Assembly (NCBI GenBank): GCA_037576195.1
Contig: CM075101.1
Location: forward strand, 52,948,001-53,012,000
Source of the DNA: Phytoseiulus persimilis
Taxonomy: Eukaryota; Arthropoda; Arachnida; Mesostigmata; Phytoseiidae
Direction: 5' to 3'
DNA length: 64,000 nucleotides
Shown here piece by piece: positions 36,170 to 44,700 of the stretch. Each line of letters starts with the position of its first letter. Within the stretch, counting starts at the first letter, position 1. Below the pieces are notes generated by a model, which did no database searches, was not told the origin of the DNA, and was given only the letters and a program-made list of their open reading frames with translations. The position numbers were made by a program, and so were the translations under genes.

Positions 36170-37290
36170 GGTGTCGAGGGGGACTATGAGTCTGCGACGT
36201 CATCCTCACTCGAATCCAAACCAAGTTCCCAGGTTAATCTTTGATTTCCACCGACCGCACGGGCTCCTGCCCACGCTCTACTCGGAGAATCGAGCGATCG
36301 GCTGTGGGACCTGTGTCTTCGCGAGGGACCTCCCAGGTCCGCTCTTTTCTGCTCCGCGCTGCAGAGACTTCTGTCTCTCAAGAGTCGGAGCTTGAGCTCT
36401 CGATTCATGATCTACGGCGACTTCGTAGGCTCTCCTCAGTCGTTCACAACCGACATCAAAAAGTTGGACGGCTCTGCCCGTGTCTCAGGATTGGACCTCA
36501 ATGGTGCCAGATGCCAGATAATTGCACCCTCAAACGCTTCAGTGCGCGCCGAAGATTCTCCAGAGTCACCTCCGAGCCAATTCGCGATCGCAGCTATGTA
36601 GTCGAAGCACTTTCCAACAACCGCTCCGTCGGAGGAGCTCCGACGGGGAACTCGGTCTTGCTCAACCTGTTGAGCTCCAGATTTTCAGTGTTGTATCCGA
36701 TCCGATGTTTTCCCTCCGTCCCAGACGCCCTGCACGCCCTGTATCACCGACTCGGCGACCAGCTCACACCGGAGCTTCTTGTGAAAATTCCGAGTGTCGC
36801 AGCCCACCTCGAGGTAAGGATCGAGGCGCAGTCCAATGAATTTCTGAGCGTTGCCACGCCATACCGGGCGAGATATGACAGACCGGTCTGGACAGGGTCG
36901 TAACTGCGGCTTGTCACTCGGACCTGACTCACGCGGCTTCCGGTGACATGGAGACGAACAAGACTCAACGCTACCCTCCATCCAAGGAGCGGAAAGTGGC
37001 TCTATACCCTTCGCTTACCGTCGATAGACACGACCTGGACAATAACACACTCGCATCGCTGTTGGCCTCCGCCTGGGAGTGCCGATCGGCACTCTTTACC
37101 TTTGTGCGAGGTGGAACTTCCCGGTCTCGGCTTCCGGTAACCATGGACCAAGCTGATCACGCAGCACGGGCTGCCTTCGCTTCGCTGCGATCGCCAACGA
37201 CCTTGAGCGGTCATGGTCGTCGGGAAAAACGTCGGGCAACGCCACCGTCTGTGACTTGTTCGAACCCCATGGTTCTCATCCTGCGAGGCT
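36170..37290 (+). pseudogene. Decayed reverse-transcriptase element (same family as the right-edge copy)
   Basis: Segments homologous to the element at 62.7-64.0 kb follow in the same order but in changing frames. First comes an RT fingers/palm piece near 36310-36350 that reads like a decayed QQGDPLGPLLF motif. Next is the active-site region at about 36396-36530, where MIYGDF stands in place of WFLDDG. Then come a segment near 36785-36840 matching the VNAHLGSRID region, the RTRLNATLHPRSGKWL segment near 36953-37005, and the DNNTL...RIAVGLRLG segment near 37040-37090. Last is a zinc-finger-like stretch in which cysteines are lost, with an in-frame stop. The second catalytic aspartate is not preserved, and several single-base frameshifts and stops are present. 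It is a dead non-LTR-type copy on the plus strand. The endonuclease tail is lost or unreadable beyond about 37290. Confidence 0.6.
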
Positions 37291-37847
37291 CGCTATGCTG
37301 TTGCAAACATGGCAAACACAGCCAAACTGACAGAGTATCCCAAGCTCGAAGCCCAACTCATCGTCCGACCCATCGCCATAGACCTCGGAACACTTGCTCG
37401 TCCTCCGGAGTGATTCTTCCAAGACTTCGAAGAAGGAATCGGGATGGGGTGTGGGACAAGAAGGCGAGAGAATCTTGCTGCAAAGAACCGCCATTGGGTA
37501 GAGTGGGAATTTTGAAGAACCTGGTCGATCGCCACCAGCCGAAGAGGCTCTTGCCGGAATCGGTTGAGCTGCTCACCGTGTGAAAACACTCGAAATCATG
37601 AAGGCTGAAGACAAAAAAGACCGGTTCCACTTCAGTTTACGACCCAAGTTATCGGTCCGTAGTGCTACGCGATGTGAGTTGCGTTTTCTACTCAATATCT
37701 CTTTCATAATCCTGCATGGACTCCAGATCTTCTACTCAGCTTCTGGAAACGGTCGTCGATTTTGGTCAAGTTCACGGAGGACTAAAAGCAACGATCAGGG
37801 CTGGGAGAAAATCGCGGCCTCCTCCGCGATTTCTATAGTTTCCTGCA

Positions 37848-38234
37848 TTGACCGCGACAACCGAGAACGCTCGAATCATTGCATCAGCCCCTGAGTATGT
37901 CTCCGAGCATATTCCCTGGTTCGACGAAGATGACTTGGCGACGGCGGAGCTTAGAATGTTTTTGAACTCGATCGAGGACTCCAATAGCTTCAGTCACCCT
38001 TGGGACATCCGGCTTGCCTTGGACCAACGCTTCCCGAAATTTCCTCAAATAGCTTCGATTTTCTGCAGTGTTCCAGCCGGCAGTGTCGCCGCGAAGCGGT
38101 CTTTCAGCATGTACACGAATGTAGTGAGAAATGACCGCCGTAGCATCGCTGAGCCAAATTCAGTCGTCTACTATATGCTTAATCAGAACGTCGGTATGCT
38201 CCAGAGCTTTGATACGAATCAAGTTCAGCGCTAA
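37848..38234 (+). pseudogene. hAT transposase C-terminal dimerisation-domain remnant
   Basis: The frame carries the pattern of the hAT C-terminal dimerisation domain. An acidic lead-in (PWFDEDDLATAEL) is followed by FPKFPQIASIFCSVPAGSVA, then KRSFSMYTNVV and RNDRRS, matching the family's P.L...A...L.ipa.S...ER.FS......R scheme. The usual ER before FS is KR here. Only the last 110 or so residues of a transposase are visible, and the DDE core upstream is not recognisable. The frame has no supported ATG of its own. It ends 75 bp left of the SWIM-domain element. It is probably a truncated fossil. Confidence 0.55.
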
Positions 38235-38300
38235 TCTACATTTCCATATTTTAAGCCAAATCCGTCCTCATCGTCTGAGGTGGACGAATTTTCAGGCTGT

Positions 38301-38309
38301 GATAGGAAC
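38301..38309. repeat. Candidate degraded 9-bp target duplication, left
   Basis: GATAGGAAC directly precedes the first base of the left inverted arm. GACAGGTTC directly follows the right arm (40427-40435). Six of nine positions agree. This is compatible with an old 9-bp duplication of MULE type but not proof of it. Confidence 0.35.
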
Positions 38310-38715
38310 GAAATGGGTGACATTCTTTGAACGCTTACTGTGCAACAACGGAGAATGTTAGAGACTCGCCGTTCAACGCGCTAGAAAGCTGGATGAAAAC
38401 CCTACAAAATATTGATTCGAACTGCAAAAAGCTTCTCGCCGATGAGAACCAATCGATTCTAGAGCCAAAACATGGAATTTTTGGGTTTTGGGCTCTAAAA
38501 GTACCTGCACGGCGAAAGAAGTGGTCAGAATTTTTTTTCCGGCATCCCCTCAAACGTGCGGAGCTGCTCAAACAAAACCCGTTCTCTTCTGTCATCTTCC
38601 GTTGCTCTACTGCTCGTTTTTTCGAAGTGGAATGCCGGTTTCGAGGAAAATGTCGTCCACGATAACGGGAACCGCATTCGACCTTCCCACTGAAAAGCCT
38701 CAGCTAGGTTGATGT
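38310..38715 (+). repeat. Left inverted arm of the SWIM element
   Basis: The arm matches the reverse complement of 40020-40426 throughout, including the words TGACATTCTTTGAACG, ACTGTGCAACAACG, GCTGGATGAAAACCCTACAA, GCCAAAACATGGAATTTT and CCCCTCAAACGTGCGGAGCT. Substitutions and one- to three-base indels are scattered evenly, so the two arms have diverged since they were copied together. Both arms can be read as a similar short peptide, but shared ancestry explains that without coding function. Confidence 0.8.
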
Positions 38716-39130
38716 TTCAGGGGAGTGATCTCATATGAATTGTTGGCCCTGGAAAGTGCCGTTATTTTGGCCCTGAGGAGGGCTTTTTGCGACCCTATTG
38801 ACGGAGCCGTCGCATCGGTTGAACACGGTAGGTTATACCATTCCTCGTCAATCTTCATTATCAGTGTCTTCCTCGATGACCGGAACAATGGATCGATCTT
38901 TAAAGAGTCAAGTCAGATGGTCCGCTGGTCTGAGGATTCCCGACAGATATCGCGCGTGAGAAGGATAGTAGATGACGGCCGCGACATGCGAACAGCAGCC
39001 TACAGTTCGATTTCCGCTGCGGCACTCGCAATAATGGCGCCGGATTACTGCGGAACCGATTGAGTCTGCAGTATAGTCGATGTAGCACCAATACTGAAGG
39101 ATGTTGCTTCTCTAGCGGTGATACCAAAGA

Positions 39131-39139
39131 TTCTCTGAG
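39131..39139. repeat. 9-bp target-site duplication, left copy
   Basis: TTCTCTGAG directly precedes the MITE. The identical nonamer directly follows it at 39497-39505. Confidence 0.85.
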
Positions 39140-39147
39140 GGGAGCGC

Positions 39148-39240
39148 GTCAGCTGGGCCGCGGCGTCAACTGGGCTTCGCCGTCAACTGGGCTTCGCCGT
39201 CAACTGGGCCCCGGCGTCAACTGGGTCTCGCCGTCAACTT
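39148..39240 (+). repeat. 17-bp tandem array, left arm of the MITE
   Basis: Five full units and one partial unit of GTCAACTGGGCTTCGCC-type sequence follow head to tail. Two internal units are identical. The others differ at the 3' half (CCGCGGC, CCCCGGC, TCTCGCC). Confidence 0.85.
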
Positions 39241-39394
39241 CCGAGCGGACCGGCAGGCAGCGGACTTGAAGCGGATTGGGAGATTGGGTGAGGTTAGGTT
39301 AGGGCTCGGGCGAGCGAGCGGAGCGATGCGAGCAGATCGACAGCCAGCGCACTCGAAATCGTGCGGAGGAATCCGGTGAGATCAGGTTAAGGCC

Positions 39395-39490
39395 CCTGTC
39401 GACCCCGTGGCCCGGTTGACGCCATGGCTCAGTTGACGGCGAAGCCCAGTTGACGGCGAAGCCCAGTTGACGCCGCGGCCCAGTTGACGG
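39395..39490 (-). repeat. 17-bp tandem array, right arm of the MITE (inverted)
   Basis: Read on the minus strand, this is the same GTCAACTGGGCTTCGCC array as at 39148-39240. It starts with a CCGCGGC-type unit and two identical TTCGCC-type units, then degrades inward (CATGGC, CACGGG). Unit order is mirrored between the arms, so the two arms probably derive from one inverted copy rather than from independent expansion. Confidence 0.8.
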
Positions 39491-39496
39491 GCACCC

Positions 39497-39505
39497 TTCT
39501 CTGAG
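39497..39505. repeat. 9-bp target-site duplication, right copy
   Basis: TTCTCTGAG follows the right end of the MITE and is identical to 39131-39139. Confidence 0.85.
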
Positions 39506-40019
39506 ATGGTTCCATGAGCGTCGCTTATGTCAGCAAGATACGACACAGACTGGCCCAGCTGGAACGTCCCAGTGAAAAATATCTCGAGCTCTCTATCGGT
39601 CAGTCTTGGAAAGCCGAGGATGGAGCTAGAATCTGCCGGTGTCCATGGTCTCCGGACTGTGTTCCAGTTGTTTTCTCGGACCTCTTCGCCCAACGTGTTC
39701 AAGGTGTCCTTCAATTGTAACATACGTACGGCCACCTCATTGAATATGGTTCCATCCAACGCCTGCCATAAACGTTGTTCAAGTGACTCCCGATTCTCAA
39801 CAAGGTTGTGACATCTAGGGGAGCATGTTGTTGTCGATCCGGTGATGGAAGAATCCGCAGAGGGCGTGTCTGTCTTAGAAGCGGGAAACTCCGAACAGGA
39901 TGTCAACGGTGTTGGCAATGCTTGTGAATGTGCCCTCCAAGGAATCTGAAGCGGAGTGGAAACTCGAAGGAATGGCGCTTCTCAGGACCAATATCTCTAA
40001 TTAGCTCGCTTGCCTGAAT

Positions 40020-40426
40020 CATCGACTCAGCGGAGACTTTTTAGAGTGAAATTCGATTGCGGCTCAAAGTTTTCTGGACCACAGTATCCTCGGAACGGGC
40101 GTTTCAGTCCGGAAAAAAAACGATCAATAGAGCAACGGACGATGGCAAAACGGTTCTTGTTCGAGCAGCTCCGCACGTTTGAGGGGGTGCCGATAAGATT
40201 TTTTTTGCTCAGTTCTTCCGTCGTGCAGGTACTTTCCGAGCCAGAAGCACCCGAAAATTCCATGTTTTGGCTTCAGAATCGATCGGTCCTCATCGGCAAA
40301 AAGCTTATTGTAGTTCAAATCAATATGATTTTGTAGGGTTTTCATCCAGCTTTTGAACGCGTTGAACCGCGAGGCTGACAATCTTCGTTGTTGCACAGTG
40401 ATCGTTCAAAGAATGTCACTCATTTC
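40020..40426 (-). repeat. Right inverted arm of the SWIM element
   Basis: This is the inverted partner of 38310-38715. The innermost aligned words are CCGCAATCGAA / CCGCATTCGAC and CCGCTGAG / CCTCAGCTAG, which set the arm length at a little over 400 bp. Confidence 0.8.
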
Positions 40427-40435
40427 GACAGGTTC

Positions 40436-41654
40436 GTCGCTCTCTTTTGCATGGATCATAGGTAATCCAGGGAATCGAATGCATCAATCACGTCAGCTGG
40501 TTCAGTGGTAATAAACCACAGTTCATCCTTCCGGGATGATTTCACCAAACATGGAAGCATCTTATTGTAAGCCACTTCAACAGGAGTTAATTGAGTGTAA
40601 TCCATGGAGAAATCTTAGGCATCGTGGGTCAGTGGTGTCTAAGCAGAAAGGCTGTACCGGAGAGGCCGGGAAAAGTCGTAGAAGACGATTTCGTCGATTC
40701 AGTTGGCGGTAAACCTCGAGGTGTCTTCTGAACACGATTCAGCTTGTTCCTCATAGCTCCGATCGATTTGTTGGGCTAAGCTTTTTGTGCTAAGTGAGAG
40801 CCGTCCTTCGACAATTCAGGCGGCGGACTCCCAGGCGTTTCAGCTTAAAACCGGGATGGGCAAGCTGACTCCCGCTACACTGACATCCGTGAATAGCACC
40901 TCTGAACTCCGCGTGAAATGACGTAAGCCTACGTTACGAATATTTCAGTACGTTCTGGTTGCATGCAAATATGGCATAAGCAAGTGCTAACCGTCTTGAA
41001 GTCGCCCGAATCGTGTGAAAGTACACTGCAGTTCCTTGGGTAAGACGGCAATGGGGCCCTTGGTAGCCGGAGTCGCCTCGCCGTCTTCTGATCCTCCACG
41101 AGAGACGTTTCGAATCGGCAGAGCACACGGTAGCCACAGCTCACTCTCAGGAGCTCATATATTTATGCCGTTCCACACGTAGGCGATGCGGCTCGCGATT
41201 TGCTATTGCGACTGCCCTCATTGTCAGACCAGAAGGGCCTGATATTTTCGCATCCCGCCGACTGCGCGGAAACCGGTGCCGATCCCTTTTCTCCACGTTC
41301 AGCCGTGCAGTGAGGAGCTAGCTCTGGTGTCAGACCCCGTTGTCATGCGTCGCATGTGTTTGTTTTACACAACTTCCAGGAATACTACTGGAGGAACGCG
41401 AGAAACGATCGGACTTGGCTCGATCGTGGACTTCAATGTCGTGCATGACTCAATGACGTTACTTCGTTATGTGCATCTGCTCCGCCGAAGTACGTGTTCT
41501 CTTGTAACGGATCATATATATTCAGGCTGCTCAACGTAACTACTGAAGTTTATTGCCATCTCTTCTTCCGCTCATCACTGTGTGTTTCGTCGGAAGTGAA
41601 CCGGTCGAGCTCGTATTGATTCCCTCGGATGCAGGGAAGGATTCCATCAATCTG
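40436..41654. other. Non-coding DNA, nothing recognised
   Basis: No coding region or repeat structure could be supported here. Confidence 0.4.
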
Positions 41655-41744
41655 CAATTACGAATAGCGAGAATCGGTTCAATCACAGATTCATGAGAGG
41701 AAGAAGAAAAGGAGAGAAAATTCCCAAATTACGTTGACCGCCCG
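41655..41744. repeat. Possible end fragment of the foldback MITE family
   Basis: The last part, GGAGAGAAAATTCCCAAATT followed by ACGTTGACCGCCCG and TA, resembles the right end of the foldback element at 46.1 kb. There GAGAGTAAGAAAATTTCCGAC is followed by TTACGATGATCACCTTG and TA. The similarity fades inward within about 90 bp, and no partner arm was found. It may be a decayed solo end of the same family. Confidence 0.3.
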
Positions 41745-41746
41745 TA

Positions 41747-44700
41747 AGTTTCGTTATTCTTCCTCAAAGGGAGCTGCGGAGATCAGGAGGTCGAGAAAAG
41801 GGTTCGCAAAAATCCATGAGTCCGAGTCAAGGTGAGGACGCAAATTCTCGCATACGAGTTCGTACCCGCGCGGCTCCCGCTGCCATCAAAGCATCGGACC
41901 CTAGTGCACCCGAACGTTAACTCTCATCTCTCTGGGTCACGGAAGCCACCGACGATATCCGATCGCGCAGAATCGGAGCATCACTCCGCATCTAATTGTC
42001 GACCTTCGGAGCCAACGATCGATATCTAGGTGATCTCCCTGCCTCATCCGGGCCTTTGCTCAGCTTTGAATTTTGGCTAAGACACTCAGAAAATTTACTC
42101 ACTGAGTCCCTTGTCTCGGCAGTTGCCCCGAGGTGCGCTCTCGTCGTCCTCACTCTCGGAGCGGTCCGATGGCAAACAGAGCACCGCAACAGGATGCGGC
42201 ACCCGAACGACAAGGCTGTAAGAATCCGGATTTCAGTCTGGGAATTCGACTGCTTTGTGACCCCGCCCCTCGCGTCGCTCTCGATCGGGATCGTCCGGAA
42301 ACGTCGTCTGACGGCGTCTTACGAGACTGCAGGCAGCCGGATGGACACTCGAACTTTTGCAGCTACTTCGAGAATCACTGTCCTTCTGCGCCAACGGATC
42401 GAGCCGCGAAATGCAATCAATTCGGAAGTGGCATTCCAATGGAATCACCGCTCCTCGTTGAGTTCTATTGCGGATCGAGCTGTCATCCCGTCCTTCAACT
42501 CGGATATATTCTGAGTAATGGCCCGCGATACGTATTCACCATCGATTCCTGACCGCCACAGAGCGATCCGATCGGGCTTCTTGGTGCGCTCTTTGTCGGG
42601 AAGAGAGCAAGACACTCACTGGACTGCCCGTCCCGTTTTGCCAGGCGTTTCACGCATCAAAACTGTGCCGATCCCACTTCGACTGGCCTCAGCGCCGACG
42701 ATGCGAGCTGCACCTACGCCGTTGTGAATCGGAAGAATTTCCGATCAGGGAAGTTGTTGTCGTCGTTGCTTCTGATGGGTAGAAATCAACTGAAAGATAC
42801 TCGGGGCTGTGTCGAGTTGCGTAGTTTTGCGTAGGACACGTTCCTGGACCTCGCCCGCCTTGCCAGCGTTTCAGCCGGCCTGCTGTCAGCCTCCTGGCAG
42901 TCAGCCGCCGACTTCTGATGTTCGGTACTGGCTCCTTCGCGAGACAGAGTCCTAGGATGTTCCGGTTGACTGTTTTGTCAGCCGGGGGCATCCAAGGGTA
43001 AAGGCGACGAATTACACCCACTGGTTGAAAATCGGGGCATGATTTTCGGGGAACAGTGCTTATATCCGTCTATGAGTCAAGCTGATCGCTCGTGGTGAAG
43101 CCGCATCGTTATCGAAGAAGATGAGGAGTTCATTATCTCTCCTGTCACTCCTCACCAAGAATGACGATTCCTGCGTCGCCTACAGATCCGCGAATAATCC
43201 GGGTTCGGAACCGGATACGTACCCGATTCCTGATACCCGGCTATTTGCGACCCCTAGTCGTGCCGCTCTCGAGACTCAGTGACAAAGCGAACACCGAAAG
43301 ATTAGGTGCGGTGTACTGATTCATACACCCGGAATATGGCCCTTGATTTTGAAAGAGCGCAAACATGTGGAGGCGCGAACAACGCAGAGCAAACGATCGC
43401 ATTGCCGCAGCCTTGACTAGACCCCAAGAAAAGAGAAGTGACTCGCTGGGAGAAATTACGATTGGGCTGTATCGCAGCATCGGGACCGAGCTGACCTCTA
43501 TGGAGGAAGGATTGGTCGATTAATCGTCGAGGTTGCGTGCACGCCGTTTTGTCTGATTGATGTTCCAGGCTGTGATGTCAATGGTATCGAAGATTCGATT
43601 GTCTTCCAGAACTCCTGGAACCTAGAGTTCAGACTCGCTAACTACGTGAGATTCGCTGGGTCTCCGGAGTTCCTCAGCCACGAAGTAGGCTCTCGAACCA
43701 AACTTCGGGGAAGAAAAACTGGTTGTAGTCTGTTTGGCTACCGCAGCTCTGTTTTTGGCAACTTGAGGCTACAAAAGCGCGCCGACACAGGAAGCGATCT
43801 CGAACATGCAGCGGAGTCTCGGAAACGACGCAGCGGCGAACCGCGCGTGGATTCAAAGTTTCCACGGCGGCGGACTTCACAGGAGAGAAAATGAATCTGA
43901 TCAAACGGCGTCATGCTTTCCGTGTGAGCTGTCGTCTCCCCCGTGCTTCAAGATGCTGATGAAGAATCTGATGCAAGCTTCGAAGACCGACAAAGAGGGC
44001 TCTTATTTTCTGAATTCCCACAAACTCATCCCTACAACTCCATTCGGTGAAAATGTTATAGAATGCAGCGCGTGGCTATCGCGTGAGTCGATAACGTCGT
44101 TTCAAGTACGGCTGCCGCCAAGATTTGGGACTGCTCCGTGTAGAAGAGGGTCCGCGCTCGGGTTCTAAGGTTCGGATTCCAATAGCTAAGGGTCTCCCCG
44201 ACCTGTCTAGGCACGTGTCCCTGTTTACTTGAAGCCTTCCTTCTCCCCTCCTGCGCTGGCTCGCCGGCCATGCCCTGTGCGCTAGTCTCTTTGGCTCCCG
44301 CGTTTTATGGAGCGGGCTCGAAAAGTGCCGTTTTGGCGACATATTCTTGCGGTAGCCAAGCAGACTAGTACCAAAAAACTTCGCTTTCGCGAGGTTCAAG
44401 GTCGGAATGGAATCGGGAGGCTCATGGCTCACCAGCGTGCAAACTTTCTAACGAGCTCCACGCAATAGCGACGCATCTGAGCTACAAACAGAGAATGAGA
44501 TACGGAACCCCCATAGGGCGTCTCTGAGTGGAAGCTCCTGATCGTTTTTGTTATCTTCACGACTTGTTTGGTCGACCCTGTACTTCTACGTGGCAGAGGC
44601 TGCGATACGGGTACTGTATTTCGTGTGTCAATCGCTCCCAAAGAACGTCTGAATTCCAGCAGCTTGATTCATCCTGATCTGCTCGTCGGCCGTACATATA

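Follow-up and report, generated by a model that had tools for sequence, protein, structure and literature searches.

What does a SWIM zinc finger do between two long inverted arms in a mite genome? The stretch that raises this question lies at positions 38310-40426 of the window, our term for the 64,000 nucleotides of Phytoseiulus persimilis DNA that were analysed (GCA_037576195.1, contig CM075101.1, 52,948,001-53,012,000). It had been read, in the original prediction, as a long-armed element whose only gene encodes a SWIM protein with its own N-terminal domain. The genome searched comprises 181 Mb in 127 contigs, where the window is C1:52948001-53012000; L-numbers such as L029 and L036 label related loci in this genome. 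Our answer, to which we give a probability of roughly 0.92, is that a dead element lies here, a non-autonomous derivative of Spy, a transposon group of the PHIS superfamily. Judged from its sequence, what had looked like a zinc-finger gene is just the C-terminal end of the element's transposase rather than a gene or accessory protein in its own right, and the locus itself is therefore ordinary.

The zinc-finger frame and its full-length relatives

The remnant comprises the following features:

38308..40473, minus strand: Spy-derived remnant of a DDE-less subfamily, truncated at both ends (flanking-repeat copies stop near 38307 and resume near 40474, with Spy-type homology between)
38309..38720, plus strand: inner part of the left arm, with ~170 bp of the outer arm lost (match to right arm; outer arm absent)
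40014..40476, minus strand: inner part of the right arm, with ~110 bp of the outer arm lost (match to left arm; comparison with other copies)
39502..39850, minus strand: remnant of the transposase stretch that directly follows the catalytic Glu (L036 frame, residues ~512-629), with a frameshift close to its beginning (tblastn with full-length transposase; nucleotide alignment of copies)
38848..39111, minus strand: transposase C-terminus with SWIM finger and acidic tail, stop-interrupted (tblastn, 44-58% to full-length transposases; translation)
38986..39030, minus strand: SWIM zinc finger, CxCx9CxH (translation; ligands invariant in 55/55 aligned homologues)

Translation of the minus strand confirmed the SWIM motif (CECRSGNRTVGCCSH, 38986-39030), which falls just short of the Pfam SWIM cut-off (19.0 against 19.6 bits, E 0.001); the scan of the window peptide gave no DDE family at E ≤ 1. 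The motif is thus present, but no intact gene surrounds it: the reading 38848-39918, taken earlier as one frame, contains a 357-bp insertion and, in its second part, an in-frame TAG. Furthermore, the peptide that starts ALPTPLTSC in the window copy, L029, L034 and L055 lies in another frame than the transposase, and the transposase frame of these four copies has a common stop just upstream. On these alignments, the supposed N-terminal domain is a frame artefact composed of a common leader and a frameshifted stretch.

The longer copies with a DDE transposase that the original prediction proposed to look for do exist. These full-length relatives encode one protein of ~700 amino acids in which a DDE_Tnp_4 core is followed by the SWIM finger; from stop to stop, the open frames measure 733 (L036), 695 (L038) and 703 (L040) amino acids. 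DDE_Tnp_4 and DDE_Tnp_1 were above the Pfam cut-off in all three, and no MULE (Mutator-like element) domain was found at E ≤ 1. L040:2869-7645 is a Spy-type element of ~4.8 kb, with an open 703-amino-acid frame, AAA/TTT flanks and ~990-bp arms that are 99% alike. All 55 of the relatives that were picked and aligned keep the second Asp, the Glu and all four ligands of the SWIM finger, which appears, on this alignment, to be a constant C-terminal part of the Spy transposase.

In residues 5-149 of the L036 protein, counted from its Met, C46/C49, C111/C114 and C146/H149 were conserved in 50-51 of the same 55 relatives; the N-terminal cysteine pairs suggest candidate zinc-binding modules. A search by sequence for solved structures gave nothing meaningful (best E 0.47). 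Foldseek against the PDB returned one match at E ≤ 0.001, Mos1 (4.5e-4, with low TM-scores), and a second look at the fold (VIA-align) mainly covered residues 291-489, with the N-terminal and SWIM parts outside the comparison.

Target sites and the Spy assignment

One group of copies, the A-type (L035, L036, L037, L039, L041, L042 and L044, some with broken frames), starts with GGGTCTCGG and ends with CCGAGACCC, and host AAA or TTT adjoins 14 of the 14 ends in these seven copies. L040, with GGGTCTGGGC, likewise sits between AAA and TTT, bringing the total to 16/16 ends in eight copies of full-length type. L043 agrees by eye save for one substitution near its right end; L038, whose arms are tandem repeats, stands outside this count.

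To L042 we could assign an empty site. Its joined flanks aligned to C3:22462857-22463156 over 300 bp without gaps (282/300 identical, 94%), and to a second paralogous site over 271 bp (92%). Where the joined flanks have AAATTT, the empty sites have AAATGT, indicating that AAA and TTT are host bases and that no target duplication was made. The AT duplication of ISL2EU, the TWA duplication of PIF/Harbinger and the 8-12 bp duplication of Mutator-like elements were all absent at L042.

Spy is described as inserting within AAATTT without target duplication (main text of PMC4482050), and as having transposases of ~700 amino acids and arms of 5-691 bp (main text of PMC11304231). Our full-length relatives combine AAA/TTT flanks, no duplication and a single DDE open reading frame (ORF) of more than 500 amino acids; the window copy itself has no such frame because its core is deleted, and for this reason we call it a derivative. 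Homologues were also found here in C. felis, C. splendana and C. gigas, species that the text of PMC11304231 names.

Another PHIS group, ISL2EU or PIF/Harbinger, has to be weighed as the source, given that DDE-domain transposases are alike across these groups (PMC4482050, main text) and that Spy and ISL2EU are sister clades (PMC11304231, main text). However, the two groups make AT or TWA duplications, as the former text reports, whereas the present elements lie between AAA and TTT with none, and their relatives have a single ORF of ~700 amino acids; we consider this assignment highly improbable. MULEs also typically carry long inverted arms, and the original prediction had offered a non-autonomous MULE that kept the SWIM-bearing piece of its transposase. 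SWIM fingers do occur in MULE-derived proteins, and it was for these that SWIM was met (PMC8616336) when we searched the literature for SWIM together with Spy, Harbinger, ISL2EU, PHIS and arthropod or mite DDE transposases. Yet L036, L038 and L040 match DDE_Tnp_4 and DDE_Tnp_1 rather than a MULE domain, and the flanks have no 8-12 bp duplication. We rejected a MULE origin, contradicted by the DDE type and the L042 empty site, as exceedingly improbable, while the description of a non-autonomous element with long arms stands.

Decay of the window copy and its neighbourhood

The arms themselves match on opposite strands (38310-38720 and 40014-40426; 411 bp, 79% identity, E 6.6e-92), close to the ~406 bp first described. 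Their outer limits, previously taken as the bounds of the element, are not its ends. In other copies, outward arm sequence runs to GGGTACAG, ~170 bp past window 38309 and ~110 bp past 40476. On the left, where the best 40 of 132 candidates were scored, 36 of the 39 other flank copies break off at window 38303-38309 (query 304-310), the remaining three before that point; no other scored left-flank copy continues into the arm. On the right, 23 of 39 copies of the flanking repeat begin at window 40472-40474 (query 43-45), with no earlier start among the 39, and two more matches are Spy arms that end near window 40472-40474. Because other copies extend outward and the flanking-repeat copies break at the window junctions, we rejected 38310 and 40426 as element ends; the window copy is without both outer arm ends.

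Across the genome, 46 arm matches fell into 31 clusters. We counted an arm locus as SWIM-linked if one of 150 listed SWIM matches lay within 1.5 kb, as was the case for 16 of the 31, a link between the arthropod SWIM family and the boundaries of an element, as had been proposed. Linkage is nevertheless partial: the other 15 clusters have no listed match nearby, although tblastn detected weak SWIM remnants in two (L050, L052), so that the refuting case named in the original prediction, arms unlinked to the SWIM gene, does occur in part. Two clusters (432 and 542 bp) have the size of miniature inverted-repeat transposable elements (MITEs). L034 (2068 bp) starts with GGGTACAGCG, ends with CGCTGTACCC and lies between AAA and TTT. 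The window copy, L029, L034 and L055 have one internal deletion in common, with a leader and its common stop upstream of the post-Glu sequence; L032 has a different deletion, joining an apparent piece of the N-terminal domain to the SWIM part, and L048 and L030, with window-type arms, have kept the second Asp and Glu regions. L048 and L030 also carry, in the opposite arm, an inverted copy of the last 37 and 20 tail codons, respectively, a pattern that suggests a 3'-end duplication replacing the 5' end, and arms grown by such inverted duplication. An autonomous parent of window type was sought in L058 and L059, where only broken or distant copies were found. L058:2401-3375, a 325-amino-acid open frame adjoining a Spy fragment, presumably resembles a MULE transposase core.

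Could the SWIM-only product have been maintained as an accessory or repressor protein, helping or restraining mobilisation by full-length Spy? At least four copies have one deletion junction and retain at least part of the region, and the median pairwise dN/dS (ratio of nonsynonymous to synonymous rates) in the wider family was 0.61 (13 copies, pairs with at least 50 common codons). Values below 1, however, can stem from ancestors that still made the full transposase, and each of the 13 mapped copies has at least one stop in its mapped codons. Since the codons tested were drawn from tblastn matches, conserved stretches are favoured in these counts. For the four copies with the common junction, counted over 147 codons present in three or more of them (L055 supplies only 34), variable sites were spread 50/45/59 over codon positions 1/2/3 (p 0.38). 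Seven DDE-less copies (window, L029, L031, L032, L033, L034 and L055, the junction not being common to all) gave 65/44/57 singletons (p 0.13) and 9/4/9 informative sites (p 0.32). Full-length pairs, by contrast, showed a strong third-position excess (L040-L038, 37/28/99; L040-L036, 68/54/135; L038-L036, 66/53/137), apart from the near-identical and uninformative L038-L043 pair (4/1/3). The even spread set against this excess gives no sign that a SWIM-only protein was maintained. With the frame artefact and these flat counts we rejected a maintained SWIM-only gene, and a DNA-binding accessory protein, as foreseen in the original prediction, is very unlikely. The simplest reading is that constraint would have acted while ancestors made the full transposase, with drift since.

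The history we propose is as follows. Full-length Spy relatives, with long arms and a protein of ~700 amino acids (N-terminal cysteine pairs, RNase H-type DDE core, SWIM finger, acidic tail), would move by cut and paste, inserting between AAA and TTT with no target duplication, as the Spy literature and the flanks here suggest. In the window subfamily an internal deletion would have removed the N-terminus and the catalytic triad, so that the arms, the SWIM finger and the segment after the Glu remained. To move, these copies would presumably have needed full-length transposase acting in trans, and they would then have decayed neutrally. The window copy would have lost both outer arm ends, come to sit in the gap of a hAT-like repeat and taken a 357-bp insertion with a 9-bp duplication.

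Several observations weigh against the assignment to a dead Spy derivative or soften it. The empty site was examined for one element only, L042, and the window copy, without both its ends, has no readable target site of its own. Among window-type copies, exact AAA/TTT occurred at 5 of the 10 ends seen, the other five being one base off. The match to Spy comes from flanks, architecture and species overlap rather than from a tree; identity between the window peptide and the first full-length protein is 37%, and the genome yielded no intact full-length element that has arms of the window type. Pfam SWIM was above cut-off in only one of three full-length relatives and precomputed for only 1/120 listed homologues, so that the finger is called on its conserved CxCx9CxH. 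Finally, informative sites across all 14 wider-family copies are most frequent at the third position (46/38/63, p 0.036), making some constraint before the deletions likely.

Two other repeats complete the locus:

39140..39496, no strand: nested palindromic insertion, 357 bp, with 17-bp minisatellite arms (repeats; genome copies)
39131..39139, plus strand: 9-bp target duplication of the nested insertion, left (sequence)
39497..39505, plus strand: 9-bp target duplication of the nested insertion, right (sequence)
37839..38307 (or, counted more widely, from 37613), plus strand: hAT-like repeat left of the remnant (ORF; genome copies ending near 38307)
40474..40936, plus strand: hAT-like repeat, continuation right of the remnant (right-flank copies; L063-L065)

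The nested insertion, with TTCTCTGAG on either side, has at least 39 further genome copies among the best 40 of 292 candidates scored, the window copy included; the scored copies are 88-99% alike over most of their length. It looks like a young MULE-type MITE family, a family name that we infer. The flanking repeat we take to be hAT from a resemblance of its ORF. L063, L064 and L065 hold both window flanks within one repeat, ~415-690 bp apart, and comparison of the intervening sequence with six Spy-type loci and with window 37001-42000 gave no match at E ≤ 0.01. Since flank copies stop near 38307, resume near 40474 and lie within one repeat in these three loci, the remnant sits in a gap of the hAT-like repeat, either through insertion followed by deletions on both sides or as captured filler.

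Meaning and comparison with known systems

The window locus is an ordinary decayed Spy derivative, a relic; the main gain is the constant, poorly described SWIM module of Spy transposases, which appears to have been little noted. A widespread arthropod 'SWIM-type domain' protein family is assigned to a known transposon group, and there is no need to take such genes, being Spy transposases, for zinc-finger proteins of the host. Spy, whose insertions leave the target unduplicated, is under development as a tool for gene transfer (PMC11304231, main text), and whether target choice depends on the finger can be tested directly. It is conceivable, though doubtful, that the finger is a functional Spy module that helps to set the choice of AAATTT and duplication-free joining, in which case derivatives with SWIM and arms could compete with full-length Spy.

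Like Spy, the full-length relatives have a single transposase of ~700 amino acids with a DDE core, long arms, AAA/TTT flanks without duplication and a mainly arthropod distribution. Unlike it, the window copy is without N-terminus, DDE core and both ends; the L040 arms (~990 bp) exceed the published 5-691 bp; and the C-terminal SWIM finger of all 55 aligned proteins has no mention in the main texts of PMC11304231 and PMC4482050, where a search for the word SWIM found none. The active cgSpy of Colletes gigas has 467-bp arms and a transposase of ~700 amino acids (PMC11304231, main text). P0115, a 370-amino-acid protein of C. gigas with the same SWIM finger, matches 51% of the L036 transposase at 48% identity, a link to cgSpy by species. 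Mutator-like elements likewise place a SWIM finger downstream of the DDE core, but theirs is another DDE family, and against their 9-12 bp target duplications (PMC11304231, main text) the elements described here make none.
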